64,000 bases of DNA from Prosthecobacter vanneervenii (GTDB lineage Bacteria > Verrucomicrobiota > Verrucomicrobiia > Verrucomicrobiales > Verrucomicrobiaceae), in the NCBI RefSeq assembly GCF_014203095.1, contig NZ_JACHIG010000006.1:186001-250000 (forward strand), given 5' to 3'. The stretch's first letter is position 1; the number at the start of each line of letters is the position of its first letter. Shown here piece by piece: positions 10,555-57,840 of the stretch. A program made the translations under genes and the position numbers. Under the pieces are notes generated by a model that saw only the letters and a program-made list of their open reading frames with translations, was not told where the DNA came from and made no database searches.

Positions 10555-10909
10555 AAGCCTGCGGAGGGGGCGCAGGCACTGCTGCTTCCCATGTTTGGCA
10601 ACGAGAGCAGGTCTGCGGCATAGAATGGCGCTGGTGAAGAAGTGATGAGCCTTGCCCCTCCAAGGGGGGAAATATTTGTGCCTATGAATCTCTCAATGAA
10701 TGCATGCTGCCATGTGCGCGTGGCATGTCCGGCATTGATTGCATGCGGCTGTGGCCAGCTGCTTCTCTGGCGCGTGTTCACGGCAGCAAATGGAGCTGCT
10801 AAATGCTGCCACACCCGGCGAGGGTTGCTGAAAACTTTTTTCACATCAATGCCATGAAATGCTTTTTGATACCATTCAATGCACAGGTGAGAGGCTGTGG
10901 CTGAAGAAA

Positions 10910-42396: not shown

Positions 42397-43164
42397 ATGG
42401 CAGCGGCGCGCGCGGACACCTTGCAATCAGTCGAACTCGCAGATGGCGTGGAGATTCAGCTCCGCGTCGCGGGTGTGGCAGTTCGCAGCATGGCTTACTT
42501 GATTGACCTGCTGATCCGCATAGCCATCTACATTGGTGCTTCCATCCTCATGTTCTGGCTTCTGGCAGACGTGCTGGGGCCGCAGGTCACTCTGGGACTG
42601 TTCCTACTTTTCATTTTCTTCATGGAGTGGTTTTACAACGTCATCTTTGAAGCGGGTGCCAAGGGTGCAACACCTGGGCAGCGCGTTTTCAAGCTGCGGG
42701 TCATGAGCATGACAGGGGGCCCGGTGACGCTGGCGCAGGCCGTGATGCGAAACTTTTTGCGCGTGGTGGATTTCATGCCGTTTTTTTACCTTACAGGGAT
42801 TGTCTGCATGCTTTTCACCCGGCGATTTCAGCGGTTGGGAGATCTGGTGGCGAACACGGTGGTGACGTATGTCGAGCTGCCGCACACCGTTGTAGCTCAA
42901 GTACCAATTCAAGCAGAGCGCCTGGCACCCTCCCAGGTGCTCACGCGGGAGGAGCAGGCGGCGCTGTTGCAGTTCATCGAGCGTGCACCGTTATGGGCGG
43001 ATGAGCGGCGTCTTGAACTGGCCTCGCTGGCGCAGCCACTGACAAAGGCACCCGGCCCAGAAGGATTGCGACGCCTTTGCGGCATGGCACTGTGGCTGCA
43101 GGAACCTGAGGAGAAACGCGCCACACCGCCACCGCTGAAAGGAGCAGCCTACTCCCGCTCATGA
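42397..43164 (+). CDS. RDD-family membrane protein
   Basis: 255 aa. The RDD signature is in the first membrane segment (VRSMAYLIDLLIRIAIYI; Arg30 and Asp37), with two or three further segments and GATPGQRVFKLRVMSMTGGPVTL between them. A cytoplasmic C-terminal tail of ~85 residues is predicted. RDD proteins of this length often accompany SpoIIM and MoxR/DUF58 genes; some RDD proteins have been linked to ion transport. It is the first gene of a six-gene plus-strand operon and overlaps the SpoIIM-like gene by four bases (ATGA). Confidence 0.85.
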   Translation: MAAARADTLQSVELADGVEIQLRVAGVAVRSMAYLIDLLIRIAIYIGASILMFWLLADVLGPQVTLGLFLLFIFFMEWFYNVIFEAGAKGATPGQRVFKLRVMSMTGGPVTLAQAVMRNFLRVVDFMPFFYLTGIVCMLFTRRFQRLGDLVANTVVTYVELPHTVVAQVPIQAERLAPSQVLTREEQAALLQFIERAPLWADERRLELASLAQPLTKAPGPEGLRRLCGMALWLQEPEEKRATPPPLKGAAYSRS

Positions 43165-44132
43165 CACCGGCGCAGTTTGAAAAGCAGATCGAGCCCCGCT
43201 GGCAGAAGCTGGAAAAGCTGCTGGCAGAGGCCGAGCAGAATCACCCCACGGCGGCGGTGGACGAACTGCCAGCCACCTTTCGCCAGGTTTGCCATGACCT
43301 GAGCGTGGCGCAGCACCGCATGAGCCCGCAGCGCCTCACTCAGAAGCTCAATGCGCTGGCCCTGCGGACGTACCGTGTGCTTGAGCGCCACAGCGCCGGG
43401 GGCTGGGAGGCGTTTGTGCGGCTGTTCTTTGTGGAGTTTCCCCAGGCGGTACGGGCAGAATGGAGACTCTTCTGGTGGTGCACCGCGCTGTTCTACCTGC
43501 CGGCAGTGCTGATCGCCGCCATTACTCCGGCACATCCGGAGTGGGCCATGGCGCTGCTGGGGCCGGAAGGCATGGTGCAGATCGAGAGCATGTACGGAGA
43601 GTCCAGCAAGCCCTCTGATTTTGTGCGTGAGAGCTATGGCTCTGGCTTTGCGGCCTTCTGCTTCTACATCTGGAACAACGTCAGCATCAATTTCAAGACT
43701 TTCGCCGGAGGCATCCTCGGCGGTGTGGGCTCTTTGTTTGTTCTGATGTTCAATTCCTTGTTTCTTGGCGCGGTATTTGGCTACGTGCACTATTCCGGCA
43801 ATCCTATGACGCTGTATGCGTGGGTGGTCGCACACGGAGCGCCTGAAATCACCGGCATGATCATCGCTGCCATGGCAGGGATGCGGGTGGGGTGGTCGGT
43901 GCTGCGGCCGGGCCGCATGGAGAGGCGCGAGGCGCTGGTGCTGGCGGGGCGCAAAGCGCTGCCGCTGCTGATCGGTGCTGCGATCCTGACGAGCCTGGCG
44001 GCAGTGCTGGAGGGCTTTTGGTCGCCGCTGAACCTGCCGCTTTCGATCAAATTTGCCTCGGGTGGCATGTGCTGGGTGCTGCTGACGGTGTTTCTACTTT
44101 TTAGCGGAAGGAGGAGCGGCAATGCGGCTTGA
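43161..44132 (+). CDS. SpoIIM-like membrane protein (DUF95)
   Basis: 323 aa. The N-terminal ~110 residues are soluble and helical (QIEPRWQKLEKLLAEAEQ). Five membrane segments follow, with the conserved patterns FYIWNNVSINFKTFAGGILGG and HGAPEITGMIIAAMAGM characteristic of stage II sporulation protein M homologues in non-sporulating bacteria. In this setting (RDD-SpoIIM-MoxR-DUF58) the protein is thought to belong to a membrane complex, not to sporulation. It overlaps the preceding gene by 4 bases and the following one by 11. Confidence 0.85.
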   Translation: MTPAQFEKQIEPRWQKLEKLLAEAEQNHPTAAVDELPATFRQVCHDLSVAQHRMSPQRLTQKLNALALRTYRVLERHSAGGWEAFVRLFFVEFPQAVRAEWRLFWWCTALFYLPAVLIAAITPAHPEWAMALLGPEGMVQIESMYGESSKPSDFVRESYGSGFAAFCFYIWNNVSINFKTFAGGILGGVGSLFVLMFNSLFLGAVFGYVHYSGNPMTLYAWVVAHGAPEITGMIIAAMAGMRVGWSVLRPGRMERREALVLAGRKALPLLIGAAILTSLAAVLEGFWSPLNLPLSIKFASGGMCWVLLTVFLLFSGRRSGNAA

Positions 44133-45663
44133 AAACATCACCGTAAATCTGCGGCCGCGCCAGCCGTGGGAGGCTGTGGACCTGGGCTGTGCGATGGTGC
44201 GCCGGGACTACGGGCGCATCATTCTGCTTTGGGCCTGCACGGTGCTGCCGCTGTGGGTGCTGGTATGCATGCTGCTGCACGCTGCGCCGGTGTGGATTCC
44301 GCTCGTGGTGTGGTGGCTCAAGCCACTCTATGACCGTGTGCCGCTCTTCTTTCTGAGTCGCGCCGCCTTTGGAGAGCGCCCTGGCTTTGCCGAGACGATG
44401 AAACAGTGGCCGCGGCTGTGGCTCAAGAACTGCCTGCCTGCGCTTCTTTGGCGCAGGTTATCCTTCATCCGCAGCTTTGCGCTGCCCGCGCAGATGCTGG
44501 AGGGCCTAAGCGGAGGGGCTGCCAACCAGCGTATCAAGACATTGGCCATGGACGGAGGCGGCTCCGGGCTGAGCTTGTCGTATGTGTTTAGCAAGATCGA
44601 GCTGGCTGCCTGGATTGGCCTGATGGCAGGCACCTATGATCTGCTGCCGGAGGCTGCCCAGCCGGAATGGAGCGGGCTTTCCGCTGCGCTGGATATCGAA
44701 AGCAGCATCCCGCGTGCCTTCCTCTGGTGGGGAGCGGCCTGCCATATGCTTATCGTCACACTTATCGAGCCTTTTTATGTGGGGGCGGGCTTTGCGCTTT
44801 ATCTGAACTGCCGCACACGCATTGAGGGCTGGGATGTGGAGCTGGCCTTCCGGCGCATGGCTGCGCGCCTGACTTCCGGCTCGGCTGCGCTTGTCATCGC
44901 CCTGCTGGCTTTGATGGCCGCTTCTTCGCCGCTGCATGCCGCAGACCCAAAGCTGGCGCAGGCTGATACCAACCCGGAATTGCGCAAGATGCTCGGTGAA
45001 CTGGAGGGCAATATTAAGAAGGCAAGGCTGGGCTCTGAAGTGAAATCAGATCCCGCCAAGACCGTGGAGAAGGTGCTCAAAGAGCCGGAATTTGAAATCC
45101 ATAAGATCAAAAGCAAGAAGTGGGTGCCCGATTTCAAATCTGAAAAGAAAAGCTCGGCTGAGATGCCATCGCTGGGCTTTTTGGAGATCATAGGGAAGGG
45201 CTTGTTCTGGCTCCTGCTCATTGGGCTGACTTCCTGGCTGGTGTATTATCTGGTGAGGAACCGTCATCTTTTCATCTCACGCAGTGCGAGCAGGGCACCA
45301 GTACGTGCGCCCAAGGTGCTCATGGGCATGAACATCACACGCGAGAGCCTGCCAGATGACATTGTGGCCGCTGCACGCGCCGCCTGGGCGACAGGAGACG
45401 GCAAAGAAGCGCTCAGCCTGCTTTATCGCGGTTCATTGTCCTGGCTGGTAAACCGCCGTCGGGTGCCGATCTCCGACAGCGATACGGAGGAAGACTGTCT
45501 GATGCAGGTGATCCAGGCCGGAGAGAAGCCTGAGGCAGAGTATTTTCGCCAGCTGACGGGGGCCTGGGTGCAGGTGGCCTATGCATTGCTGCCTGTGTCA
45601 GATGCCGAGATGGGTGCACTGTGTGATCAGTGGCCCTTCATTGAGAAAGGAGGGGCAGCATGA
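44122..45663 (+). CDS. Membrane protein with C-terminal DUF4129-like domain
   Basis: 513 aa. The N-terminal half (1-270) has about five membrane segments and reads like an integral-membrane accessory domain (QPWEAVDLGCAMVRRDYGRI). A periplasmic charged linker follows (about 275-350), then a membrane segment (~357-377, GLFWLLLIGLTSWLVYYLV) and a cytoplasmic DUF4129-like tail (AARAAWATGDGKEALSLLYRGSL). A strong ribosome site AAGGAGG (44108-44114) fixes the start inside the SpoIIM gene. DUF4129 proteins regularly partner MoxR and DUF58. The start of the next gene overlaps by four bases. Confidence 0.7.
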   Translation: MRLENITVNLRPRQPWEAVDLGCAMVRRDYGRIILLWACTVLPLWVLVCMLLHAAPVWIPLVVWWLKPLYDRVPLFFLSRAAFGERPGFAETMKQWPRLWLKNCLPALLWRRLSFIRSFALPAQMLEGLSGGAANQRIKTLAMDGGGSGLSLSYVFSKIELAAWIGLMAGTYDLLPEAAQPEWSGLSAALDIESSIPRAFLWWGAACHMLIVTLIEPFYVGAGFALYLNCRTRIEGWDVELAFRRMAARLTSGSAALVIALLALMAASSPLHAADPKLAQADTNPELRKMLGELEGNIKKARLGSEVKSDPAKTVEKVLKEPEFEIHKIKSKKWVPDFKSEKKSSAEMPSLGFLEIIGKGLFWLLLIGLTSWLVYYLVRNRHLFISRSASRAPVRAPKVLMGMNITRESLPDDIVAAARAAWATGDGKEALSLLYRGSLSWLVNRRRVPISDSDTEEDCLMQVIQAGEKPEAEYFRQLTGAWVQVAYALLPVSDAEMGALCDQWPFIEKGGAA

Positions 45664-46976
45664 CTCCTCGGCTTGCCATTCGCAGCCTTCTCATGCTGTG
45701 CAGCCTGCTGATGATCTGCTCGTGCGATGGGCACTGGGAGGATGTGGAAATAACCACAGGCTACAAGGGCAAGGCGCGTGTGAACCCCTTCCTGGCCGCC
45801 GAGCGTCTGCTGGACGAACTCGGCCACGATGCCCATGGAGCGAAGTCTCTGACCAAGATGCCAAAGCACGATGCCGTGATCCTCATCTCAGGGGAGGGTG
45901 GTCTGCCGCAGGGCCGGGCCAAGCAGCTGCTGCGCTGGGCCTACAGCGGAGGCCATCTCATCTACTGTCTGTCCGGCACACGTCCCTACAACGACTTTGA
46001 AACCCAGTTTGGCTCCTTTATCTCCGCTCTGCTGCTGGAAGAGGAAAAGGACACCGTTCTGGAGCAGCTCGGTGTCGGGGTGCAGAAGCGCTTGCCGGCC
46101 GAAGAGCTGCCGGGCTTGCTGGAAAAATTCCACGGAGAGGAAAAAGCCCCGGGCGCCAAGAAAGAAAAAGAGAAGGACAAGGCCGGGCAGAAGGAGGATG
46201 TCGGAGAGCAGGGGGCAAAAGACAAAAAGGCCAAAACCCAGGAGGAAAAAGACAAGGAGATGGAGGCAAATGAGGAGGTGTCATGGAATGGCAGGACCTA
46301 CCATCTTAGCCTGGGCGGCTATCAAAGCATGGTGCTCAAGCGCAAGCTGCGAGCGGGGGAGTTTTCCGCCGGGTCCAAGAACGACTCCCTGGCGCTGCAT
46401 CTGAAGCATGGCATGGGCAGCGTGACGCTGCTGGCGCATGCGCGTCCGTTCCGTAATCACTGGATCGGGGAGCATGACCATGCGAGCTGGCTGTCCGCGT
46501 TGGTGGGTGAAAATGCACGCAAGGAGGTGCTCTTTGTGGCCAGCACCTCGGGCAGCTTTTTTGGCATGCTGTGGCAGCATGGCTGGAAGGCGTTGGTGGC
46601 CCTGGGGCTTTGCCTGGTATTCTGGCTCTGGCAGCAGATGCCACGATTTGGGCCGCTCATGGAAGTGGAACTGGACGCCACTCGCCACTTTGCCAGCCAC
46701 ATCGGCGCACTGGGGGAGTTCTTCTGGCGCATGCGTCGTGCGCCCATGCTGGTGGATGCAGCACGCGAGGCTGTGTGGGAGCGGGTGCGGGAGCGCCACC
46801 GGCCGCTGGACGACGGCAGCCGGCAGATGAATGACCGTCTGGCCGAGGAAATCTCCCGCCGCACCGGGCTGCCAGCCAAGCGTGTGGCAGCCGCCTTTGA
46901 TGCCGCACCGCCTGATAGCGCCCACAACTTTGTCAATCTCATGCGCGATCTCCAAGCCATGCGCCGTGTCCTTTAA
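45660..46976 (+). CDS. DUF4350 protein, membrane-anchored
   Basis: 438 aa with a lipoprotein-like leader (LLMLCSLLMICSC). It has a DUF4350 domain of Rossmann/ThuA-like type (AERLLDELGHDAHGAKSL, HDAVILISGEGG, LLRWAYSGGHLIYCL). A Lys/Glu-rich linker (about 155-205, e.g. KEKEKDKAGQKEDVGEQ) interrupts the domain. One membrane segment lies near 305-325 and a cytoplasmic tail is rich in Arg. A near-perfect ribosome site AAGGAGG (45647-45653) lies 6 bases before the ATG, which itself overlaps the upstream stop. Function unknown; it belongs to the MoxR/DUF58 assembly by context. Confidence 0.8.
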   Translation: MTPRLAIRSLLMLCSLLMICSCDGHWEDVEITTGYKGKARVNPFLAAERLLDELGHDAHGAKSLTKMPKHDAVILISGEGGLPQGRAKQLLRWAYSGGHLIYCLSGTRPYNDFETQFGSFISALLLEEEKDTVLEQLGVGVQKRLPAEELPGLLEKFHGEEKAPGAKKEKEKDKAGQKEDVGEQGAKDKKAKTQEEKDKEMEANEEVSWNGRTYHLSLGGYQSMVLKRKLRAGEFSAGSKNDSLALHLKHGMGSVTLLAHARPFRNHWIGEHDHASWLSALVGENARKEVLFVASTSGSFFGMLWQHGWKALVALGLCLVFWLWQQMPRFGPLMEVELDATRHFASHIGALGEFFWRMRRAPMLVDAAREAVWERVRERHRPLDDGSRQMNDRLAEEISRRTGLPAKRVAAAFDAAPPDSAHNFVNLMRDLQAMRRVL

Positions 46977-46997
46977 ACATCCATCATCCTCACCTCC

Positions 46998-48044
46998 ATG
47001 AACCCCATTCTTCCAGAACCTGATGTGTCGAGCCTCTACACGCCGCCGCCTGCGGGTCAGCTTCCACCAGCAGGCTATTCGCCTCCGGTGGTGCCGCAGA
47101 GCACAGGGATTTTCCAGCAGATCCGCCAGGCGGTGGGGCAGGTCTTTGTGGGGCAGGAGGAGGTGCTGAACCAAGTGCTTGCCGCATTGCTGGCAGGAGG
47201 GCACGTGCTGCTGGAGGGAAAGCCTGGCCTGGGCAAGACGCACCTCGTCCTGGCGCTCTCACGCACGTTTGGCGGCAGCTTTCGTCGCATCCAGTTCACG
47301 CCAGATTTGATGCCTTCGGATGTTTGCGGCCATACGCTTTTTGACATGACCAGCGGCACCTTCCGAGTGCGGCGGGGGCCGGTCTTTGCCAATCTGCTGC
47401 TGGCGGATGAAATCAACCGCGCTCCAGCCAAGACGCAATCCGCACTGCTGGAGGTGATGCAGGAGACGCAGGTGACGATCGATGGAGAGAGCCACACGCT
47501 GGCACCGCCTTTCATGACCTTTGCCACGCAGAATCCCATCGAGCAGGAGGGCACCTACCCGCTGCCAGAGGCGCAGCTCGACCGCTTTTTGCTCAAAGTG
47601 CTCATCGACTACCCGGACGCAGCTAACGAGACCTGGGTGGTGAAGGCGGTGTCATCCCGTGCTTCGGGCGGCGGGCTCTCCACCTCCGAGGTGCCGCAGG
47701 TCTGCACGCCGCAGGACATTCTGGCAGCACAGGCAGAAGCCGCAGCCGTGCAGGCGGTGGAGCAGGTGGTGGATTATGCCGTCAAGATCGTGCGCGCTAC
47801 ACGCCAGCACAGCGCCATCTCGCTGGGGGCTGGCACGCGTGGGGCCATCAGCCTCGTGCGTGTGGCCAAAGCCTACGCACTGCTGGAGGGGCGCGGCTAC
47901 ATCACCCCAGCGGATGTGAAGCGCGCCGTGCTGCCGGTGCTTAGACATCGTGTGCAGCTTGCGCCAGAAATCGCCATCAGCGGCCAAAGCGTGGATGACA
48001 TGCTGAACTCCCTGATCAAGACCATCGAAGCCCCCCGCGTCTGA
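46998..48044 (+). CDS. MoxR-family AAA+ ATPase
   Basis: 348 aa. Walker A EGKPGLGKTHLV (about residues 74-85), Walker B LLLADEINRAPAKTQSALLEVM, sensor-1-like FATQNPIEQEGTYPLPEAQLDRF and a C-terminal lid (SLGAGTRGAISLVRVAKAYAL) are all intact. MoxR ATPases act as chaperones that activate or mature partner complexes, usually containing VWA or DUF58 proteins. The first ~35 residues are a Pro-rich leader not typical of the family. It starts 21 bases after DUF4350 and ends 5 bases before DUF58. Confidence 0.95.
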   Translation: MNPILPEPDVSSLYTPPPAGQLPPAGYSPPVVPQSTGIFQQIRQAVGQVFVGQEEVLNQVLAALLAGGHVLLEGKPGLGKTHLVLALSRTFGGSFRRIQFTPDLMPSDVCGHTLFDMTSGTFRVRRGPVFANLLLADEINRAPAKTQSALLEVMQETQVTIDGESHTLAPPFMTFATQNPIEQEGTYPLPEAQLDRFLLKVLIDYPDAANETWVVKAVSSRASGGGLSTSEVPQVCTPQDILAAQAEAAAVQAVEQVVDYAVKIVRATRQHSAISLGAGTRGAISLVRVAKAYALLEGRGYITPADVKRAVLPVLRHRVQLAPEIAISGQSVDDMLNSLIKTIEAPRV

Positions 48045-48049
48045 TTTTC

Positions 48050-49354
48050 ATGCGTCCGACTGCCGAACTGCTCAGACTCTTCATCGCCTGGCTGGCGCTG
48101 GCGCTGGCGGCCTGTGTCTGGGAGAGTTTTGTCATCCTCTGGCAGATTGGAGGCGGGTTGCTGTTTTTGCTGCTCGCAGTAGATGCCCTGACTTTGCCAA
48201 GGCGTGGTCGTATTACCGGCCAGCGTTCGCTGCCGGGGCGTTTTGCGCTGGGGGTGAGCTCGCAGGTGACGCTGACGGTCACGCATACAGTCAGACGCAC
48301 ACTGAAGCTGGAGGTGTTTGATGGCATCCCTACTGCTGCGGAGGCGGAAGGGCTTCCGCATCAGGTCAGCATCCCACCCGGAGAATATGCCGCCATTTCG
48401 TATGACGTGAGCTTTGTGCGTCGCGGGCAGCATGTCTTCACAGCAGCGCATGTGCTGGTCGGCTCCGCGCTCGGGCTGTGGCGCAGGCTGCATTTTATTG
48501 CCGGGGAGAGCCAGACCAAGGCGTATCCCAATTATGAGCCGGTGGTGCGCTTTGCCCTCCTGGCGATGGCTAACCGGGTGGAGCAGATGGGTATTGTGCG
48601 CCGCCGCCGCATGGGGGCCTCGCTGGATTTCCACCAGCTGCGTGATTATCAGGATGGAGACATTCTCTCCCGCATCGACTGGAAGGCCACCTCGCGTCGC
48701 TCCACGCTGGTAAGTCGTGACTATGAGGAGACCCGCAATCAGACGATCCTGCTGGTGCCGGACTGCGGCCGCCGCATGCGTGCCCTGGACGGTGGGCTGA
48801 GCCAGTTTGACCACTGCCTCAATGCCATGCTGCTCATCGCCTTCATCGCATTGAGGCAGGGAGATGAGGTTGGCGTGGCTGGTTTTGGCGGAGTGCAGCG
48901 CTGGCTGCCGCCGGTGAAGGGGGCGCACAGCATGCCCAAGCTGCTGAACCACCTCTACAACTACGAAGCAAGCAGCGAGCCCAGTGATTTCATCGAGGCC
49001 GCCGAGCGTGTGATGACGCTGCAAAAGCGACGTGCGCTCGTCATCATGCTGACCAATCTGCGCAGCGAGGATGGGGCTACACTGGCCGCCGCCGCCAGCG
49101 CCATGCAACGCCGTCACCTGGTGCTGGCCGCCACCCTGAGGGAGCAGGAGCTGGATCAGAAGGCCGCAGCCCCCATCGACAATCTACATGATGCGCTGCA
49201 GTACGGAGCGCTCTCGCACTACTTTGGCGAGCGCCGCCAGCTGCTGGAGTCCCTGCGTGCGCGCAAGATCCTGACGGTGGATGAGTCCGCCCAGATGCTG
49301 CCGGTGGCACTGGCCAACAAGTACTTGGACGTGAAGGCAGGCGGTCTGCTCTGA
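48050..49354 (+). CDS. DUF58 / VWA-like protein
   Basis: 434 aa. Two adjacent N-terminal membrane segments (about 9-45) are followed by a beta-rich stretch and the DUF58 signature GASLDFHQLRDYQDGDILSRIDWKATSRR (seen in two parts around residues 188-216). A von Willebrand A-like domain follows (TILLVPDCGRRM, where the metal-site sequence is degenerate). It is the usual partner of MoxR and forms the last gene of this operon. A 102-bp gap with an imperfect GC-rich dyad (TGTCGC 49394-49399 / GCGACA 49426-49431) separates it from the DegT gene. Confidence 0.88.
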   Translation: MRPTAELLRLFIAWLALALAACVWESFVILWQIGGGLLFLLLAVDALTLPRRGRITGQRSLPGRFALGVSSQVTLTVTHTVRRTLKLEVFDGIPTAAEAEGLPHQVSIPPGEYAAISYDVSFVRRGQHVFTAAHVLVGSALGLWRRLHFIAGESQTKAYPNYEPVVRFALLAMANRVEQMGIVRRRRMGASLDFHQLRDYQDGDILSRIDWKATSRRSTLVSRDYEETRNQTILLVPDCGRRMRALDGGLSQFDHCLNAMLLIAFIALRQGDEVGVAGFGGVQRWLPPVKGAHSMPKLLNHLYNYEASSEPSDFIEAAERVMTLQKRRALVIMLTNLRSEDGATLAAAASAMQRRHLVLAATLREQELDQKAAAPIDNLHDALQYGALSHYFGERRQLLESLRARKILTVDESAQMLPVALANKYLDVKAGGLL

Positions 49355-49456
49355 GCCTTTGCCAGACGCGTGTTAAGCCGCGTATTTACATGATGTCGCG
49401 TTTTTCGCCACGCGTAGCGTTATTTGCGACAAAACTGTCGTGCTGGAGTATTTGGC

Positions 49457-50587
49457 ATGCCCAGTCTCCTCAACACATTGTCAGTGCCCTATCCCTTGGC
49501 GGATCAGCACCGGCATGAGCCTGCACTGAGAGGTGCATGGCAGCGTGTGTGTGAGAGCGGCAGCTACATTTTGGGGCGGGAAGTAGAGGCGTTTGAGAAG
49601 GAGTATGCGGCGTTTCTTGGCGGTGGCCGGGTGGTGGGCGTGGCCAGCGGCACAGATGCGATTGAGCTGATGCTGCGCGCACTGAACATCGGGTCTGGCA
49701 GCAAAGTGGTGGTGCCTTCCTTCGCGCCTTCAGCCGTGGCTTCCGGTGTGCGGCGCAGTGGCGCGGAGGTGGTGTTTGCAGACATTGATCCGCACACATT
49801 TACACTCTGCCCCGAGTCCTTGGCCGCCCTGCTGCGATCTCCGCAGGGGAGCGGCGTAGATGCGGCACTGGTGGTTCATTTGTATGGGCACCCGGCAGAC
49901 TGGCAGGGGCTGCGCAGTGTGGCCGTAGAGCACGGCATCGAGCTGCTGGAAGACTGCGCGCAGGCGCACGGCGCACTCTGGCAGGGGCGCATGGCTGGCA
50001 CTCTGGGCAGGGCTGCTGCGTTCAGCTTTTATCCCACCAAGAACCTGGCCGCGCTGGGAGATGCGGGTGCGGTGGCCACACAGGATGCTGAACTGGCGGA
50101 GCGCCTGCGCCTGATTCGCGAGTATGGCTGGGGCCGCCGGAATGTCAGCGACTTTGCCGGTGTGAACAGCCGGCTGGATGAACTGCAAGCCGCTGTCCTG
50201 CGGGTCAAACTGGGCTCATTGCGTGACAACGTCCTGCAGCGGAGGCGGCTGGCGGCGGTGTATGATGCCAGTTTAAGCGGCTGCCGTATGGTGGTGCCGC
50301 CGGTGGTGCGCGGCGGCTGCGAGCATGCCTACCATCAGTATGTGATCCGCACCAAAAATCGCGAGGCTTTGCTGCAGCATCTGCAGCAGGCGGGCATACC
50401 TGCGGCGGTGCACTACCCTGTGCCGCTGCACCGGCAGCGTGCTTTTGCCGGCAGTCACATGCCGCTGTCGGAGGCTGAGCGTGCTGCCTCTGAGGTTATC
50501 TCCCTGCCAGTGCACCCCTACCTTTCCGAAGAAGCTCCTGCCGAAGTGGGTGAAGTCATAGAAAGGTTTGATCATGCGTGCGGCTGA
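49457..50587 (+). CDS. DegT/DnrJ/EryC1/StrS sugar aminotransferase (FdtB/QdtB-like)
   Basis: 376 aa from the ATG at 49457 (an upstream TTG is rejected). PLP-dependent transfer of an amino group to a keto-deoxysugar nucleotide. The PLP lysine is Lys195 in FSFYPTKNLAALGDAG, with Asp166 in EDCAQAHGA and VASGTDAIEL as further family blocks. The presence of an FdtA-like 3,4-ketoisomerase four genes on suggests synthesis of a 3-amino-3,6-dideoxyhexose (Fuc3N or Qui3N type). No nucleotidyltransferase or dehydratase is in the window. The gene overlaps the methyltransferase by 14 bases. Confidence 0.9.
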   Translation: MPSLLNTLSVPYPLADQHRHEPALRGAWQRVCESGSYILGREVEAFEKEYAAFLGGGRVVGVASGTDAIELMLRALNIGSGSKVVVPSFAPSAVASGVRRSGAEVVFADIDPHTFTLCPESLAALLRSPQGSGVDAALVVHLYGHPADWQGLRSVAVEHGIELLEDCAQAHGALWQGRMAGTLGRAAAFSFYPTKNLAALGDAGAVATQDAELAERLRLIREYGWGRRNVSDFAGVNSRLDELQAAVLRVKLGSLRDNVLQRRRLAAVYDASLSGCRMVVPPVVRGGCEHAYHQYVIRTKNREALLQHLQQAGIPAAVHYPVPLHRQRAFAGSHMPLSEAERAASEVISLPVHPYLSEEAPAEVGEVIERFDHACG

Positions 50588-51332
50588 ATACGACCTGATG
50601 CATGCCGTGGAGGACGGGCACTGGTGGTATGCTGTGCTGCGAGGCCTCGTGGACGAAGCGCTGGCGGGGCGGCTGCCTGCTGCGGCGCGGCTGCTGGATG
50701 CCGGGTGCGGCACCGGCGGTATGCTGGCCTATCTGCAAACGCGGAAAGCGGATATGGAGCTGTCTGGTGTGGATGCCGCAGAACAGGCCGTGCGCTACTG
50801 CCAGCAGCGGGGCCTGGCTGCTGTGCAGCAGGGGTGGGTGGAGGCGCTGCCTTTTGCTGATGATGCTTTTGATGCTGTCCTCTGCCTGGATGTGCTCTAT
50901 CACAGCGATGTTCATGAGCAGCAGGCGCTGGCAGAGCTGGCCCGTGTGCTGCGCCCACAAGGTCTGCTGCTGCTCAACCTGCCAGCCTTTTCCGTGCTGC
51001 GCGGCGCGCACGATGCTGCTGTGGGCGGTGCCAGGCGCTATGAGGCAGGCCAGGTGCGTGCGTTGCTAAGCCGCTCCAGCTTGGCTGTGGAGAAGATCCA
51101 CTACTGGAACGCATGGCTGTGCCTGCCGCTGCTCGTGTGGCGACAGCTGAGCCGACTAACCAAAAGCACCGCCTCAGACCTGGGCTGTGCTCCGGTGTGG
51201 ATGAACCGAATGCTGGCGTGCGCAGGCCGGCTGGATGCAGGGCTTTGCCGCTCCCTCCTAGTGCCCTTTGGCTCATCGGTCTTCGCCGTGGCACGAAAAA
51301 CAAACTGCTCAGCCGGGAGGAAAGCTGCATGA
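50574..51332 (+). CDS. Class I SAM-dependent methyltransferase
   Basis: 252 aa from the ATG at 50574, preceded at a suitable distance by GAAAGG (50561-50566); the alternative TTG at 50568 adds two residues. The SAM-binding motif LLDAGCGTGGMLAYL lies near residues 40-54. VDAAEQAVRYCQQRGL and DAVLCLDVLYH are the following strands of the fold. The EDGHWWYAVLRGL start recalls methyltransferases found in glycan clusters. The target may be the sugar or its lipid carrier, but this is not shown. It overlaps the glycosyltransferase start (ATGA). Confidence 0.8.
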   Translation: MRAAEYDLMHAVEDGHWWYAVLRGLVDEALAGRLPAAARLLDAGCGTGGMLAYLQTRKADMELSGVDAAEQAVRYCQQRGLAAVQQGWVEALPFADDAFDAVLCLDVLYHSDVHEQQALAELARVLRPQGLLLLNLPAFSVLRGAHDAAVGGARRYEAGQVRALLSRSSLAVEKIHYWNAWLCLPLLVWRQLSRLTKSTASDLGCAPVWMNRMLACAGRLDAGLCRSLLVPFGSSVFAVARKTNCSAGRKAA

Positions 51333-52288
51333 CTGTCATGAGCGACATGCCGGAAATGAGCTTTGTGGTGCCGCTTTACAACACGGGTGCGGGCCTGAAG
51401 CCGCTGCTGGATGCTTTTCGCGCCCTTTCCATCCCGGAAGCGTGGGAGCTGGTGCTGGTGGATGATGGCAGTGCGGACGACACCTTTCAGATGGCTCAGC
51501 GGCTCACGACTGATTTTCCCGTGCCGGTGACGCTTGTAGAGCTGGCGCGCAACTATGGTGAGCATGCCGCCGTGCTGGAAGGGTACCGCCGCGCACGCGG
51601 ACGCTTGGTGGTGAATCTGGACGACGATCTACAAAACCCGCCGGAAGAAGCCGTCAAACTGCTGCGGCACCTGCGGTTCACCGGGGCTGAGGTGGTTTAC
51701 TCACGCTATGCCCAGAAGAAGCATCCCTGGGCGCGCAATGCGGGCAGCTGGCTGGTGAACCGTTGTGCCACCTTTCTGCTCGGCAAACCCCGGGATCTCT
51801 ATCTCTCCAGCTTTCGTGCACTGCGCCAGGAGCTGGTCGGGCGCATTGTGAGCTATCGCGGACCCTATCCATACATCGATGGTCTAATCCTCGGCGCGAC
51901 CAACCGCATCGCCACGCTGGAGGTGGCACACGTAGAGCGCAGCATGGGCCGCAGCGGCTACACTCTGCGCAAGCTGGTGCGTCTGGCCATGAGCCTGCTT
52001 TTTGACTTCAGCGTGATGCCGCTACGCATGGCCAGCGTGCTGGGCCTGCTGCTTTGTGCCTTAGGCGGCCTGGTGCTGGCTGAAGTGGTGGCGGAGACTC
52101 TGATGGTGGGCCAGCGGCAGCTCGGCTGGGGCTCCCTGATGGGGGCGCTGGCAGTCTTCAGCGGAGCGCAGCTGCTGATGCTGGGTCTCATCGGTGAATA
52201 CATCGGGCGTGCCTTTCTCACCGTCTCTGGCAAACCGCAGTCATTGGTGCGCGCGCTGATTCCGAATCCCGGGCCAACTTCCGCATGA
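51329..52288 (+). CDS. GT2 glycosyltransferase, polyprenyl-phosphate type (GtrB/ArnC-like)
   Basis: 319 aa from the ATG at 51329, which overlaps the upstream stop and has a ribosome site GGGAGG at 51315-51320; a frame starting at 51113 lies inside the methyltransferase. The GT-A core has FVVPLYNTGAG, VLVDDGSADDT (about 44-52) and the metal/nucleotide motif VVNLDDDLQNPPEE (about 95-107). Two C-terminal membrane segments (about 230-290) and GLIGEYIGRAF complete the architecture of DPM1/GtrB/ArnC enzymes, which load a sugar onto undecaprenyl phosphate. It overlaps the FdtA-like gene by four bases. Confidence 0.88.
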   Translation: MTVMSDMPEMSFVVPLYNTGAGLKPLLDAFRALSIPEAWELVLVDDGSADDTFQMAQRLTTDFPVPVTLVELARNYGEHAAVLEGYRRARGRLVVNLDDDLQNPPEEAVKLLRHLRFTGAEVVYSRYAQKKHPWARNAGSWLVNRCATFLLGKPRDLYLSSFRALRQELVGRIVSYRGPYPYIDGLILGATNRIATLEVAHVERSMGRSGYTLRKLVRLAMSLLFDFSVMPLRMASVLGLLLCALGGLVLAEVVAETLMVGQRQLGWGSLMGALAVFSGAQLLMLGLIGEYIGRAFLTVSGKPQSLVRALIPNPGPTSA

Positions 52289-52740
52289 TCCACGAAACCG
52301 TCATCGAGAACTGCTCAGTGCGCGGTGTGCATCTTTTTGAGATGCGCCATGTGGTGGACCATGTGCGCGGCCATCTGACGGCGCTGGAGTTCACTCAGGA
52401 CCTGCCGTTTGTGCCTCAGCGCATTTTCATGACCTATGGCATCCCATCCCTGTGCACGCGCGGGGAGCACGCCCACCGGCAGTGCGCGCAGTTTCTGGTC
52501 TGCGTGCATGGGGAGTGCCATGTGATCGTGGACGATGGGGAGAACCGCGAGGAGTTCTGCCTGAACCGGCCCACCTTCGGCTTGAGCGTGCCACCCATGG
52601 TCTGGGCGCAGGAGCATCTGCACTCGCAGGATTCAGTGCTGATGGTGCTGGCATCAAGGCCGTATGAAGCGGCGGATTACATTCGTGATTACCAGCAATT
52701 TCTGACTATGGTAAAGGAGGGGATGAACACAGCCGCATGA
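52285..52740 (+). CDS. Sugar 3,4-ketoisomerase (FdtA/QdtA/WxcM-like cupin)
   Basis: 151 aa. Cupin fold with the family motif TRGEHAHRQC (His62, His64, the positions of catalytic histidines in FdtA) and a C-terminal EAADYIRDYQQF, also typical. FdtA-type enzymes isomerise dTDP-4-keto-6-deoxyglucose to the 3-keto sugar, the substrate of FdtB/QdtB aminotransferases such as the DegT protein in this operon. Overlaps of four bases tie it to the GT2 gene upstream and to the histidine kinase downstream. The substrate is inferred from family and context. Confidence 0.88.
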   Translation: MIHETVIENCSVRGVHLFEMRHVVDHVRGHLTALEFTQDLPFVPQRIFMTYGIPSLCTRGEHAHRQCAQFLVCVHGECHVIVDDGENREEFCLNRPTFGLSVPPMVWAQEHLHSQDSVLMVLASRPYEAADYIRDYQQFLTMVKEGMNTAA

Positions 52741-53852
52741 ACACCAGCACAGACACCTCAGGCAAGAACGAGGAGGCAAGGGATAACGTGGCCGCGCTCT
52801 GGAGCAGGATCACCAACGAAATGCGCCGCCGCAGCCCGTGGACGACGGTGGCGCTCACGGCCTCCTTCACCCTTATCATCGGCTGGCTGGACCACATCAC
52901 CGGTTTTGAGGTCACGTGGTTTGTTATTTACGGCATCCCGATTTTCATGACGGTTTGGTGGGCTGGCAACAAGCCTGGTCTCTTCATTGCGGTACTATCC
53001 GGCCTCGTCTGGTGGCTGGCCAACATGAGCACCACTCCCTACGAGACACAGCTTGGCTATGCCTGGGCGCTGGCCAACCGTCTGGTCTATCTCTGTGTGG
53101 GCGTTTTTGCCGTGACTGCGCTGCGCAACAAGCAGGAGGCTGACGAGGCACGCATCCAGATGCTGGAGGAGCGGCGGCAGCTGGAGAAGGATATCGTAAC
53201 CGTCAGCGAGCACGAGCAGCAGCGTATCGGGCAGGATCTGCACGATGGCATTTGCCAGCAGTTGGCGGCCATCGGATTGGCGGTGCGTGTGCTGGCGGAG
53301 GATCTCCAGGCGCAGGGCGTGCAGTCTGCCGAGGATGCCAGCTTGATTGAAAACTCCCTGCAGCAGGTGGTGCTGGAGGCGCGCAATCTCGCACGTGGGA
53401 TCTTTCCTGTGCATGTGGATCGCAGCGGCCTGGCTGCAGCGCTGGCAGATCTGGGAAGAATCACCAGCAAGCTCACGGGCACGCCCATTTCAGTCGACGA
53501 CTGCGTGGACGTGCCTTTGGACGCTCCTGAGATTTCCATGCATCTTTACCGCATCGCGCAGGAGGCCGTGGCCAATGCCGTGCGGCACAGCGGCGCCACG
53601 GAGGTGCAGATCTCCACCAGGCTAAGCGGAGATCTGCTGGAGCTGCGCGTGGAGGACAATGGCAGAGGCATGCCTGCCACCTCCGCCGCACGTGGCGAGG
53701 GCATGGGACTGCGCACCATGCACTATCGCGCCCAGATGTTGCAGGCTGAGCTTTCGCTCGGCACACGCCCGAAGGGCGGTGCACATGTGACCTGCCGACT
53801 AGATCTGAGAAAAATCAAACCCACACCCAGTCATCCCAATGAAAAAAACTGA
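52737..53852 (+). CDS. Sensor histidine kinase, NarX/UhpB class, four-TM sensor
   Basis: 371 aa. The N-terminal membrane domain (about 36-128) is Trp-rich: LIIGWLDHITGFEVTWF, VWWAGNKPG, VWWLANMSTTPYET. A coiled coil leads to a HisKA_3 dimerisation domain with phospho-acceptor His169 in IGQDLHDGICQQLAAIG. An HATPase domain follows, with the N box HLYRIAQEAVANAVRHSG and G box VEDNGRGMP. This class phosphorylates LuxR-type response regulators; one is encoded next, overlapping by 14 bases. Its ATG overlaps the FdtA-like stop, so sugar genes and sensor are translationally coupled. A close paralogue lies at 56710-57840. Confidence 0.93.
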   Translation: MNTSTDTSGKNEEARDNVAALWSRITNEMRRRSPWTTVALTASFTLIIGWLDHITGFEVTWFVIYGIPIFMTVWWAGNKPGLFIAVLSGLVWWLANMSTTPYETQLGYAWALANRLVYLCVGVFAVTALRNKQEADEARIQMLEERRQLEKDIVTVSEHEQQRIGQDLHDGICQQLAAIGLAVRVLAEDLQAQGVQSAEDASLIENSLQQVVLEARNLARGIFPVHVDRSGLAAALADLGRITSKLTGTPISVDDCVDVPLDAPEISMHLYRIAQEAVANAVRHSGATEVQISTRLSGDLLELRVEDNGRGMPATSAARGEGMGLRTMHYRAQMLQAELSLGTRPKGGAHVTCRLDLRKIKPTPSHPNEKN

Positions 53853-54516
53853 AGTTAAAGAAGCCAACGGTTACAAGGTGCTCCTCGTCGAAGACCATCC
53901 CATGTTTCGTGAACATCTGGGCCAGCTCATTGACAGGGATCTCGGCATGTCAGTCTGCGGGGAGGCGGACAACATCCGCGACGCCATGCGCCTTATTCTG
54001 GAGACCAAGCCTGACATTGCGATTGTGGACATCACGCTGCACGGCTCCAGCGGTCTGGAACTGCTGAAGGACATCAAGGCACAGGGGCTCGAAATCAATG
54101 TGCTCGTGCTTTCGATGCATGACGAAGAGTTGTACGCTGAACGTGCGCTGCGTGCCGGCGCGAAGGGGTACATTACCAAAAACGAAGCTTCCAGCGAGGT
54201 GATCGAGGCCATCCGCTGTGTGATGCGCGGAGACGTGTACGCCAGCCGACAGATGACTGCCAAGCTGCTGGAGCGCATGACGCAAAAGCGCAGCAACTCC
54301 GAACTGGCAGGCATGGAGACACTGGCGGACCGCGAACTCGAAGTCTTCCAGATGCTGGGCCGGGGCAAGAGCACGCGCGAGATCGCGCAAACACTCAACC
54401 TTGGGGAATCCACCGTGGAAACGTACCGTGCGCGCATCAAGGAAAAGCTGCAGCTGCGCAGTGCTGCAGAGCTGTATCTGCGCGCCGGGCAGTGGGTGCG
54501 CGATCATGGTGCCTGA
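53839..54516 (+). CDS. LuxR/NarL-family response regulator
   Basis: 225 aa. The receiver domain has the acidic pair Glu18-Asp19 and phospho-acceptor Asp64 (DIAIVDITLHG), then a conserved Lys in AKGYITKNEAS. A C-terminal LuxR-type helix-turn-helix follows (about 158-215: LADRELEVFQMLGRGKSTREIAQ, STVETYRARIKEKL). It is the cognate partner of the kinase at 52737. Its target promoters are unknown; likely candidates are its own operon and the TPR gene that follows. It overlaps the kinase gene by 14 bases. Confidence 0.93.
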   Translation: MKKTEVKEANGYKVLLVEDHPMFREHLGQLIDRDLGMSVCGEADNIRDAMRLILETKPDIAIVDITLHGSSGLELLKDIKAQGLEINVLVLSMHDEELYAERALRAGAKGYITKNEASSEVIEAIRCVMRGDVYASRQMTAKLLERMTQKRSNSELAGMETLADRELEVFQMLGRGKSTREIAQTLNLGESTVETYRARIKEKLQLRSAAELYLRAGQWVRDHGA

Positions 54517-54544
54517 ACATGCGCTGAGTGTCAGCTTTAGCGGC

Positions 54545-54563
54545 TGTGGTGATGCTTACCACA
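54545..54563 (+). terminator. Small hairpin after the response regulator
   Basis: TGTGGT / ACCACA stem of 6 bp with a 7-base loop, 28 bases after the stop, followed by a short TCTTTTG run. It may attenuate transcription between the regulator and the TPR gene. Confidence 0.3.
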
Positions 54564-54630
54564 AGGCATGTCTTTTGCTCAAATCAGGCGTTTCAGGGCA
54601 AAATAACAGCATAACTAATCCCTGAGCCAT

Positions 54631-56622
54631 ATGTCCAAACGCAGCCGTCAAAAGCACTCCGGAAGCAAAGCAGTGGAACGCGCCTCCGCACCCCTTGTCG
54701 AAGCCGCTGTTCCGCATGCTGAAAATGAGGCGCTAATGCCGGCTTCTGATGGGGGTGAGAGTCCTGTTGCAGTCGCACAAAAGACTCCGGCGTGGGTTCA
54801 TGCTGCAGTAGCCGTATTGCTTGCAGGACTCTGCGTGGGCCTTTACAGCTGGACGGCAGATTTTCCGATGGCTTTTGATGACCATACTTATCTCAAGGAT
54901 AATCCTTTTTTCAAGGATGGTGCCACCTTTGACTACCTGAAGAACTTTGAGGAGTTTGCCAACCGCCCTGCAAAGATGGGCTCCGACCCTGACTATGCAG
55001 TCAACGCAGTGCTCCGCCCAGTGGCGTATGTCAGCTTTCGTCTGAATTATTTGCTCGATGGATTCCGGCCCCACTGGTACCGACTGGTGAATGTGGCGGT
55101 GCATGCGGTGAATGCGTTTCTGGTCTATGCACTCGTAGGTGTGCTGCTCGGTCATTCATCGCGAGTGCAGAAAGTGCAGCGCAGTTCTGTATTCTTCATC
55201 GCAACGGCAGCAGCCCTGCTGTTTGCCGCGCATCCGCTGGCCACGGAGTCGGTGACTTACATCATCCAGCGCTTCACCTCCCTGGTGGTTCTTTTCTCGC
55301 TGATCAGCCTGTGGCTGTATTTTGCGTCATTTCACATTCAGGAGCGGTGGGGAGGGCGGTTCCTACGCGGTGGAGCGGTGGTGGCGGCTTTGCTGGCCAT
55401 GCAGACCAAGGAGGATGCAGTGATGGTGCCTCTGCTGGCCCTGCTGCTGGACTGGCTGGTGCTGGGCACGGGCCTGCGCGCCGCCCTGCTGCGTGCGCTG
55501 CCCCTGCTGCTGCTGCTGCCGGTAGTGCCCGGACTGGTGCTCATGACCTCGTCAGCACAGCATGGCGGACACGACTGGCATGCGGCCATGAACATTGTGA
55601 ACTCGCGCGATGATCCGCTGAACCACTGGCACTACATCGTGACCGAACTGACGGTGATGACTCATTATCTGCGGCAGATGTTCTGGCCCAAGGGGATGAA
55701 CCTTGACCCCGAGTGGCCGCTTTACAAATCCTTCTGGGAGCGGCCTGTGCTCCAGGCGGTTATTGTTCTGACTGGGATGGTGCTGGCGGCATGGAAGCTC
55801 TTTCAGCGGCATCGGCGAGATGCCAGATTTGCCCTCGGCTTTGCCTGTGTGATCTGGTTTTTGCTCACCGTGTTTGTGTCCTCCGGACTGGTGCCGCTGC
55901 CTGACCTAGTGGCGGAGCACCGCTCCTATCTGCCCTCCATCGGCATCATGATCCTGGTGGCTTGTCTCCTGGACTGGCTGCGCAGCAGCGGCCTGCACAG
56001 GCATGCGCTGCGCATCGGGGTTCCAGTCTTTACGCTTCTGTGCGTGGCTGCGCTCTCCTGGAAGACCTGTGTGAGAAACAATGTGTGGCGCACACGCGAG
56101 AGCCTGTGGGAAGACACTGTGGCCAAGAGCCCCGGAAAATATCGCACTTGGGGCAATCTGGGTGCCGCCTACTCCGATGCAGGCAAAAACGAAAAAGCAG
56201 TTCACTGCTTCCGCGAGGCGCTCAAGGTGGAGCCCCGTTTTCAGAACGGACTGCTCAACCTTTCCAATTCGCTGCTCAGGCTTAATCGTCCAAAGGAGGC
56301 CTTGGATACCACGATGAAACTTATCAAGATGGACAGTACAGCCACGACCAAGCCACCAGTGGCTTTCACTCTAGGCCTGAGTCTCGCGGGAGTGGGCAGG
56401 TATGACGAGGCTGTAGCAGTCTTCCGGGACATCTTGCATGCCATGCCTGATGATCCGCAGGCTCATAAGGCCCTGGGGCTAGTCTATTACCAGACCGGCT
56501 TGCCGCACAGGGCGCTAGATCATTACAATGCCGCTGCTCAGGTGCAGCCGAATGACCCTCAGCTGGAGCGCCTCATCGAAGCCGCCAAGGTGGCGTTGGC
56601 CAACAAGGGCAGACCGCGATAG
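54631..56622 (+). CDS. TMTC-like membrane protein with TPR repeats (GT-C type)
   Basis: 663 aa. After a short cytoplasmic tail come about ten membrane segments (about 55-475). The first luminal loop carries FPMAFDDHTYLKDNPFF, with Asp83-Asp84 in the position of the acidic motif of GT-C glycosyltransferases. LYKSFWERPV and related blocks match the TMTC/DUF1736 pattern. TPR repeats follow (about 505-650: NLGAAYSDAGKNEKAVHCF, ALGLVYYQTGLPHRALDHY). TMTC proteins are O-mannosyltransferases in animals; bacterial relatives are uncharacterised. Lying after a polyprenyl-phosphate GT2 and sugar genes, it may be the enzyme that transfers the finished sugar to a target. That is inference. Confidence 0.75.
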   Translation: MSKRSRQKHSGSKAVERASAPLVEAAVPHAENEALMPASDGGESPVAVAQKTPAWVHAAVAVLLAGLCVGLYSWTADFPMAFDDHTYLKDNPFFKDGATFDYLKNFEEFANRPAKMGSDPDYAVNAVLRPVAYVSFRLNYLLDGFRPHWYRLVNVAVHAVNAFLVYALVGVLLGHSSRVQKVQRSSVFFIATAAALLFAAHPLATESVTYIIQRFTSLVVLFSLISLWLYFASFHIQERWGGRFLRGGAVVAALLAMQTKEDAVMVPLLALLLDWLVLGTGLRAALLRALPLLLLLPVVPGLVLMTSSAQHGGHDWHAAMNIVNSRDDPLNHWHYIVTELTVMTHYLRQMFWPKGMNLDPEWPLYKSFWERPVLQAVIVLTGMVLAAWKLFQRHRRDARFALGFACVIWFLLTVFVSSGLVPLPDLVAEHRSYLPSIGIMILVACLLDWLRSSGLHRHALRIGVPVFTLLCVAALSWKTCVRNNVWRTRESLWEDTVAKSPGKYRTWGNLGAAYSDAGKNEKAVHCFREALKVEPRFQNGLLNLSNSLLRLNRPKEALDTTMKLIKMDSTATTKPPVAFTLGLSLAGVGRYDEAVAVFRDILHAMPDDPQAHKALGLVYYQTGLPHRALDHYNAAAQVQPNDPQLERLIEAAKVALANKGRPR

Positions 56623-56656
56623 GTTGTGCGCCGGAGGGGGAAGGATGCAGTTCATT

Positions 56657-56683
56657 GTATTTCAGACTTTAAGTCTGAAATAC
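56657..56683. promoter_or_regulatory. Perfect 27-bp palindrome upstream of the second histidine kinase
   Basis: Arms GTATTTCAGACTT / AAGTCTGAAATAC (13 bp each) around a single T, AT-rich, 26 bases before the kinase start and 34 bases after the TPR stop. Symmetry this long suits a dimeric regulator's operator; without a T-tract a terminator is less likely. It could also be a REP-type repeat. Confidence 0.55.
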
Positions 56684-56709
56684 GAGTGCATATGATACTG
56701 CGTTAATTC

Positions 56710-57840
56710 ATGACAGCGACCTCATCCACCCATGCCGAAAAGGCCGCATTTCCTGCTGCCAAAGGAGGGATGGCGAACTTGGAAGATGCCAGCTCTTCTA
56801 CCGCGCCGGCTGGCAGTCGCGTGAGCGAGCTCACGGTCAAAATGCGCGCCAGCCCGATTTGGATGGCGCTTGCGATGCCCATGTTTCTGACGGTGGTTCT
56901 TGGCTGGCTTGATCAGATCACCAGCTGGGAGATCAGCTGGTTCATTTTCTATGCAGTTCCCATCATCATGGCCGTGTGGTGGGCCGGCGTCAGAGGTGGC
57001 ATGCTCACTGCCATTTTTTCCGGTGCAGTGTGGTGGGTGGCCAACCGGTACACCAGTCCCTATAAGACGGAGATGGGCTATGCCTGGGCTATGCTCAACC
57101 GGGAGTTTTATTTTTGCGTGCTGGTTTTTGCTGTGAATGCCGTGCGCGGCAAGCAGGACGCAGACGCTGCCCACATTCGCATGCTGGAAGAGCGCAGACA
57201 GTTGGAGAAAGACATCGTCAGCGTGAGCGAGCATGAACAGCAGCGCATCGGCCAGGACCTGCACGACGGCCTCTGCCAGCAGCTGGCTGCCATAGGCTGC
57301 GCCTTGCATGCGCTGGCGGAGGATCTCTATGCACAGAGGCTGCCAGCGGCACAAGATGCCGCCCTGGTGGAAGAGTCCGTGCAGCAGGCTGTGGCGGACG
57401 CGCGCAATCTCGCCCGGGGTATTTTCCCAGTGCATGTGGATCACGCCGGCTTCTCCGCCGCACTGAAAGAACTGGCGGGGAATACCAGCAGGCTGACGGG
57501 TGTCTCCATCGTCATCCAAGAGAGCGGAGAGACGCAGATCGAAAATCCCAAGGTGGCGATGCATCTCTACCGCATCGCGCAAGAGGCGGTGGCCAATGCC
57601 GTGCGGCATGGTGGCGCACGTGAAATCGTCATCTCTGTAAACCGCCATCGCGATGCGCTGGAACTGAACTTGGAAGACAATGGCACCGGCTTGCCTGAAG
57701 GCTCGCCACCTACTGCAGGCATGGGCCTCCGCACGATGCGCTACCGGGCTCAGAGCTTGGGTGCCAGCTTCGAGATCATGCCCCGTCGCTCCGGCCCTGG
57801 CACCTGTGTCCGCTGCTGCCTGCCGATCAAAGATTTCTAA
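56710..57840 (+). CDS. Sensor histidine kinase, paralogue of the one at 52737
   Basis: 376 aa. Same architecture and closely similar sequence to the kinase at 52737-53852: Trp-rich four-TM sensor (VVLGWLDQITSWEISWF, VWWAGVRGG, VWWVANRYTSPYKT), HisKA_3 with His185 in IGQDLHDGLCQQLAAIG, and HATPase (HLYRIAQEAVANAVRHGG, LEDNGTGLPEG). The N-terminal 45 residues differ and are Ala/Ser-rich. No response regulator follows. It may cross-talk with the regulator at 53839 or serve a distant one. A perfect 27-bp palindrome precedes the gene. Confidence 0.92.
   Translation: MTATSSTHAEKAAFPAAKGGMANLEDASSSTAPAGSRVSELTVKMRASPIWMALAMPMFLTVVLGWLDQITSWEISWFIFYAVPIIMAVWWAGVRGGMLTAIFSGAVWWVANRYTSPYKTEMGYAWAMLNREFYFCVLVFAVNAVRGKQDADAAHIRMLEERRQLEKDIVSVSEHEQQRIGQDLHDGLCQQLAAIGCALHALAEDLYAQRLPAAQDAALVEESVQQAVADARNLARGIFPVHVDHAGFSAALKELAGNTSRLTGVSIVIQESGETQIENPKVAMHLYRIAQEAVANAVRHGGAREIVISVNRHRDALELNLEDNGTGLPEGSPPTAGMGLRTMRYRAQSLGASFEIMPRRSGPGTCVRCCLPIKDF

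Follow-up and report, generated by a model that had tools for sequence, protein, structure and literature searches.

We analyzed a 64-kb stretch (the window) of the 6.66-Mb genome of Prosthecobacter vanneervenii that carries genes for a DegT-family aminotransferase, a methyltransferase, a GT2 glycosyltransferase, an FdtA-type ketoisomerase, a sensor histidine kinase (HK) and a response regulator (RR), followed by genes for a TMTC-like GT-C protein and a second kinase (HK2). A predicted 34-base composite site, which is new here, is located upstream of the DegT gene and the TMTC gene alike. We consider it probable that these genes constitute a glycosylation module with a two-component switch dedicated to it. 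The HK/RR pair would control two units: the RR would act at the site before the DegT-to-RR genes, thereby controlling HK and RR as well, and at the site before TMTC.

The composite element (TGTGGCGnnnnnCGCnACAnGTnGTGTCATTTGC, consensus) was common to the DegT upstream region and to the gap between the RR and TMTC genes, with identical spacing in the aligned relatives. When weights were trained on TMTC sites from which the window was excluded, the two best matches within the 64 kb were the window's TMTC site (29.6 bits) and, after it, its DegT site (12.1 bits); the next match reached 7.2 bits. A sequence-only model built from 38 sites (R1) was then run on 142 relatives, with less strict filters on 35 genomes, and on 386 genomes of the order. 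In the 386 genomes, 52 matches at an E value of ≤0.01 were obtained in 33 genomes: 17 before DegT, 29 before TMTC, 4 inside the methyltransferase gene, 1 before HK (G013), and 1 in G080. The 15 matches that were not training sites all lay at places typical of the system. Chance would yield about four matches in 386 genomes at this per-genome threshold, and none was seen away from the system. The host genome contained exactly two matches below an E value of 0.01, both at this locus, and the next had an E value of 0.61. RR presence was determined within the 142 relatives: all 33 site-bearing genomes carry the RR, while none of the 99 RR-lacking relatives had a match at E ≤ 0.01. RR carriers that had contributed no training site showed a match in 7 of 17 cases. 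Because the site is confined to genes of the system and to RR carriers, with only two matches in the host genome, the two-component system most likely serves as a local regulator dedicated to two transcription units here. The match in G080, a member of another family, lies at 10818-10851 of locus L126 between HK-RR and the gene for a giant LEPR-XLL secreted-type protein (at least 2,306 amino acids), 231 bases before the latter; no sugar genes were present in the stretch examined.

Alternatively, the shared site could belong to another regulator or sigma factor of equal distribution, with HK-RR being a passenger pair. Binding of the RR to the site is a prediction, and 10 of the 43 RR carriers had no clear site. 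The distribution described above argues against this alternative, as does the presence of a site before HK-RR itself in G013 (34.0 bits) and, in weaker form, in G063 (14.3 bits), G044 (11.3 bits), and G056 (11.2 bits). Moreover, the site is an inverted repeat, which suits a dimeric regulator of the LuxR type. We therefore regard a different regulator as improbable. Judging from the sites before HK, autoregulation seems to be independent of the sugar genes; in the window, the RR gene lies within the DegT unit, and thus control of this unit would amount to autoregulation as well. A rearrangement was seen in G013 (L131): compared with G002, a deletion of about 2.8 kb removed nearly all of the DegT-to-GT2 segment, so that the DegT-type site now fronts HK-RR, and TMTC is absent.

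The first-pass annotation had proposed a single transcript for the entire locus. However, a separate upstream region with a separate copy of the site precedes TMTC, and HK-RR-TMTC lies off the sugar-gene contig in several genera. These features indicate that TMTC is a separate, coregulated unit, and the idea of one transcript is therefore unsupported. In most of the genus members displayed, a −10-like CAAAAT lies at a fixed distance after the TMTC site, with a −35-like TTGC at the end of the box. This placement would suit activation. A scan for consensus promoters and terminators returned nothing decisive, and the promoter-like pair of TMTC was not among its entries. The DegT element ends 29 bases upstream of the start codon, and no −10 element was evident there.

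Conservation of the arrangement was assessed in loci around FdtA matches (56 of the 142 relatives) and RR matches (43 of 142) and in 48 named contigs; the genus was represented by 48 genomes, 31 of which carry the RR. FdtA immediately precedes HK in 27 of these 31 genomes. The order DegT-methyltransferase-GT2-FdtA-HK-RR-TMTC, for which the first-pass annotation had suggested a search across Verrucomicrobiota, was found on one contig in 21 of them, including G015, in which DegT is cut by the contig end. On account of these two counts, the gene arrangement is more than chance. An order conserved in no relative, one of the outcomes that the first-pass annotation had named as refuting, was thus not observed. 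In G046 the order is kept at 30 to 68% identity, and RR identity is 81 to 96% in most genus members. In other genera of the same family (G052, G055, G057, G061, G062, and G063), the sugar genes and HK-RR-TMTC are both present but reside on separate contigs. In G056, one contig carries GT2-FdtA and another carries methyltransferase-HK-RR-TMTC; the methyltransferase gene is likewise part of the HK-RR-TMTC block in G055 and G062. G054 has a joined six-gene block, while G091, from another family, shows the order GT2-TMTC-methyltransferase-FdtA-DegT-RR. With strict thresholds, the RR was detected in 43, TMTC in 35, and GT2 in 45 of the 142 relatives. Each of the 35 genomes with TMTC carries the RR, and 33 of them carry GT2; the two exceptions are G043, with a contig that begins at FdtA, and G091, with a more distant GT2. 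Among the 48 genus genomes, TMTC and GT2 were each found in 26, every one an RR carrier. The RR-TMTC association had a Fisher P value of 6.8e-26, which ignores shared ancestry and is hence inflated. Thus, as the first-pass annotation had claimed, the two-component system belongs with the sugar genes, by their conserved order, by the co-occurrence of the sugar block and the kinase-RR-TMTC block even where these are unlinked, and by the shared site.

Eleven GT2-positive genomes have the sugar block without RR and TMTC, and HK-RR also occurs without sugar genes. These cases would fit a scenario in which the sugar block serves the synthesis of an exopolysaccharide, whereas TMTC and the kinase-RR pair form a system of their own that happens to lie nearby. 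A single type of site precedes both units, though, and TMTC and GT2 co-occur in 33 of 35 genomes, unlinked cases included. Furthermore, the methyltransferase gene is found in either block, and in G091 the genes are combined in a different order. An independent exopolysaccharide pathway is thus quite unlikely in our view.

Several observations weigh against a common module under the control of HK-RR. The relatives share ancestry, and the counts therefore represent nonindependent events. Of the 52 site matches, 37 are training sites, and weights trained on the DegT sites left the window's TMTC site outside the top eight. The 10 RR carriers mentioned above had no site at E < 0.01. G002 lacks FdtA between GT2 and HK. 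G021 is without TMTC and without most of the kinase, and HK-RR stands without sugar genes beside it in G006, G013, and G044 (3 of the 31 RR-carrying genus members) and in other families, so that the pair is not restricted to a role in glycosylation.

The sugar genes point to the synthesis of a 3-amino-3,6-dideoxyhexose. RmlA and RmlB, which are required for dTDP-4-keto-6-deoxyglucose, are encoded side by side elsewhere in the host genome (415.2 bits at a cutoff of 360.65 and 462.3 bits at a cutoff of 365.1, respectively) and would supply this intermediate. FdtA would then shift the keto group, and the DegT enzyme would aminate C-3. The FdtA protein is a clear member of PF05523 with WxcM proteins as its nearest matches, and its catalytic residues 62 to 64 (HAH) were invariant in 11 sequences. 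Among the named sugar enzymes with solved structures, DesV (2oga, labeled "Transaminase"), WbpE, and QdtB outscored ArnB-, PseC-, and perosamine-type enzymes as matches to the DegT protein, although such similarity does not fix the position of amination. These three are C-3-specific aminotransferases. The methyltransferase may act on the resulting amino sugar. An assignment as a sugar N-methyltransferase of the DesVI/TylM1 type was rejected, as neither name occurred among the 43 solved matches listed. No N-acetyltransferase (FdtC/QdtC or the WxcM N-terminal domain) is encoded in the locus. Elsewhere in the host genome, the best candidate reached only 35% identity over 125 residues; it lies beside RmlA, was read as a generic left-handed β-helix acetyltransferase, and was not accepted. 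FdtA stands alone throughout the genus, unlike the fused FdtA of other genera, where it is joined to a left-handed β-helix acetyltransferase of the WxcM type (L160, 8437-9384; L161, 9821-10720; L163, 4588-5514; L117, 6449-7276). The acetyltransferase is N-terminal to FdtA in all three RR-lacking, GT2-positive loci that were read (L160, L161, and L163); G063, an RR carrier, likewise has an acetyltransferase-FdtA fusion.

The GT2 protein is nearest to ArnC, yet it scored only 164.7 bits with the ArnC model (cutoff, 529). It probably loads the sugar onto polyprenyl phosphate. On the outer side of the inner membrane, the TMTC-like GT-C protein would then pass the sugar to an acceptor that is likely to be an exported protein. 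The lipid-carrier route put forward in the first-pass annotation is made plausible by the pairing of these two proteins. A structure model of the TMTC protein (pLDDT, 90.2; pTM, 0.87) predicted a GT-C fold: in VIA-align, in which Z differences under 1 count as ties, the membrane domain (residues about 47 to 516) aligned with STT3 (Z, 20.9), Pmt4 (18.1), and ArnT (17.8). Residues about 500 to 663 aligned with tetratricopeptide repeat (TPR) proteins, which places the TPRs after the GT-C fold. Foldseek alone gave TPR proteins among the 50 matches listed, and the GT-C matches came from VIA-align. D83, D84, R129, P130, E261, H430, and R431 were invariant in 37 sequences, and K260 was conserved in at least 90%. 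The motifs of the TMTC family are thus present: DD in the first outer loop, the K/E motif, and an R before a late transmembrane helix. Roles of these motifs are described in PMC7801869, according to which full-length TMTC-like proteins also exist in poorly characterized prokaryotes. Our searches of open-license PMC papers listed no function for prokaryotic TMTC-like proteins.

The same pathway and control could instead deliver the amino sugar to lipid A or another glycolipid, with TMTC acting like ArnT. Such an Arn-like route would fit ArnC as the nearest relative of the GT2 protein and ArnT as one of the best fold matches to the membrane domain, and PmrAB-type control of the Arn genes is the best known case of this logic. 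On the other hand, the fit to ArnT is no better than that to STT3 and Pmt4, both of which glycosylate proteins. By analogy with the eukaryotic TMTC proteins (PMC7801869), a protein acceptor is suggested by the TPR domain and by the TMTC motifs. In addition, G055 encodes a 2,004-residue TSP3-repeat protein directly after TMTC (L110, 599-6613). We therefore judge a glycolipid acceptor to be rather unlikely and favor transfer to protein. A similar protein follows TMTC in G062, which belongs to the same genus as G055 (L114, 3-854; the contig ends 285 residues in). These giant proteins are candidate acceptors by position, and no giant neighbor of the TSP3 kind follows TMTC in the window. In G057 (L112, 5116-13571), four TMTC paralogues stand in tandem next to HK-RR, and a strong site precedes three of them.

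The Arn operon under PmrAB/PhoPQ, which acts on lipid A with 4-amino-4-deoxy-L-arabinose (L-Ara4N), is the closest working analogue of the locus. Both share a DegT aminotransferase, an ArnC-type GT2, a GT-C transferase, and two-component control. In contrast to Arn, however, the locus has FdtA in place of ArnA, TPRs on the GT-C protein, and a HisKA_3/LuxR-type instead of an OmpR-type regulator, and its regulator genes overlap the sugar genes. The proteins also fall far short of the cutoffs of all Arn models (in addition to the ArnC score given above, 137 bits with the ArnB model at a cutoff of 631), and no ArnA- or ArnD-like gene was found among the eight locus proteins scanned. With the animal O-mannosyltransferases TMTC1 to TMTC4, the system shares the GT-C domain with the DD, K/E, and R motifs and the C-terminal TPRs; the protein here is bacterial, and its neighbor genes point to an amino-deoxysugar donor and not to mannose. 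The FdtA/FdtB/FdtC, QdtA/QdtB/QdtC, and WxcM pathways (Fuc3NAc and Qui3NAc) likewise have an FdtA-type ketoisomerase adjoining a DegT aminotransferase, which in the present locus is probably of the C-3 type. Here, the acetyltransferase is absent and a methyltransferase is present instead, and a polyprenyl-phosphate-type GT2 and TMTC are attached. The Pgf system, which glycosylates streptococcal adhesins, offers a PgfS-like GT2 (109.7 bits; cutoff, 500) with a GT-C partner as the common element. To our knowledge, the Pgf system has neither amino-sugar genes nor a two-component system. No paper describing the present locus was listed in our searches of the open-license PMC literature.

In 17 of 29 distinct linked loci, the methyltransferase gene contains an extra site of at least 14 bits in frame with a CG[AV]RRYxxCHV-like protein stretch; examples lie at L158 9467, L153 8260, L156 5940, and L148 9240, among others. 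Coding coincidence was evaluated by permuting synonymous codons within each gene (300 trials) and was rejected: the score was matched in 0 of 300 permutations in 12 of the 17 loci and in 1 to 10 of 300 in the other 5. The same procedure gave 57 to 135 of 300 for RR-lacking loci (L159, L160, L161, and L164) and 37 to 186 of 300 for unlinked loci of RR carriers (L113, L117, L119, and L121). The intragenic site is replaced by an intergenic one before GT2 in L135, L136, and L138. More speculatively, the system may represent bacterial TMTC-type protein glycosylation with a polyprenyl-linked, possibly N-methylated 3-amino-3,6-dideoxyhexose as the donor in place of mannose, with giant surface proteins as acceptors and a dedicated membrane-embedded kinase as the switch, the regulator site within the methyltransferase codons of many relatives having coevolved with the protein stretch that it encodes. 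We put this extended version forward tentatively.

The kinase, which would receive the signal, has a hydrophobic N-terminal membrane region and no recognized periplasmic domain; a DUF4118 match stayed below the curated cutoff. Its HisKA_3 domain retains the His residue, and the RR is a CheY-GerE regulator with its Asp. A DLHD motif was present in 45 of 46 aligned kinase matches and was absent from that of G021. In G021 (L149, 2518-2952), an in-frame internal deletion took most of the kinase core; the sugar genes and the RR were kept. HK2 is 56% identical to HK over 353 columns, lies without a site in the window, and was not adjacent to TMTC in the relatives examined (L034 and L036). An RR gene tree was rejected as a means of dating the joining of the blocks, being too weakly resolved (20 of 41 inner branches open); the starred branches force at least two linkage changes.

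The coordinates of the features are given in the table below. The open reading frames exactly match the first-pass annotation, including six genes that overlap by 14 (DegT/methyltransferase), 4, 4, 4, and 14 (HK/RR) bases and the TMTC-like GT-C/TPR protein and second kinase downstream of them. The "physical fusion" deduced from the overlaps was an overstatement, since the products are separate proteins whose reading frames overlap. The gaps measure 114 bases between RR and TMTC and 87 bases between TMTC and HK2. The latter gap contains a perfect palindrome (GTATTTCAGACTTTAAGTCTGAAATAC, 56657-56683), whose core was found once in the window; it may be a terminator, a site, or a mobile remnant. 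Directly upstream of DegT, SpoIIM-DUF4129-DUF4350-MoxR-DUF58 genes occupy 43161-49354, and many close relatives have them in front of DegT too.

Table. Features of the predicted glycosylation locus (positions refer to the window)
Feature	Position	Strand	Basis or remark
Predicted RR site (box) before DegT	49394..49427	+	TGTCGCGTTTTTCGCCACGCGTAGCGTTATTTGC; same element before TMTC; best match in host genome, E 2.0e-4
DegT-family sugar aminotransferase, probably C-3 (FdtB/QdtB/DesV-like)	49457..50587	+	Pfam DegT_DnrJ_EryC1, 2.7e-95
Class I S-adenosylmethionine (SAM)-dependent methyltransferase	50574..51332	+	Pfam Methyltransf_11, 3.5e-20
Decayed counterpart of the relatives' intragenic box	51024..51057	+	−2.4 bits; 59/300 permutations as high
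GT2, ArnC/GtrB type	51329..52288	+	Pfam Glycos_transf_2, 3.4e-22
FdtA-type sugar 3,4-ketoisomerase, stand-alone	52285..52740	+	Pfam FdtA (PF05523), 4.5e-48
HisKA_3 sensor kinase (HK)	52737..53852	+	Pfam HisKA_3, HATPase_c
NarL/LuxR-type response regulator (RR)	53839..54516	+	Pfam Response_reg, GerE
Predicted RR site (box) before TMTC	54545..54578	+	TGTGGTGATGCTTACCACAAGGCATGTCTTTTGC; E 0.0076 in host genome
−35/−10-like pair TTGCTC-N18-CAAAAT beside TMTC box	54575..54604	+	Read by eye
TMTC-like GT-C glycosyltransferase with C-terminal TPRs	54631..56622	+	Pfam TPRs
HK2, paralogue of the first kinase	56710..57840	+	Sequence comparison; without own RR, without box

In this locus, a TMTC-like protein comes with candidates for both its donor pathway and its control circuit and with a precisely located DNA site, so donor, acceptor, and regulation are each open to ordinary genetics. 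If our interpretation is correct, the locus would represent regulated envelope or protein glycosylation in Verrucomicrobiota, assembled from a sugar block and a kinase-regulator-TMTC block.

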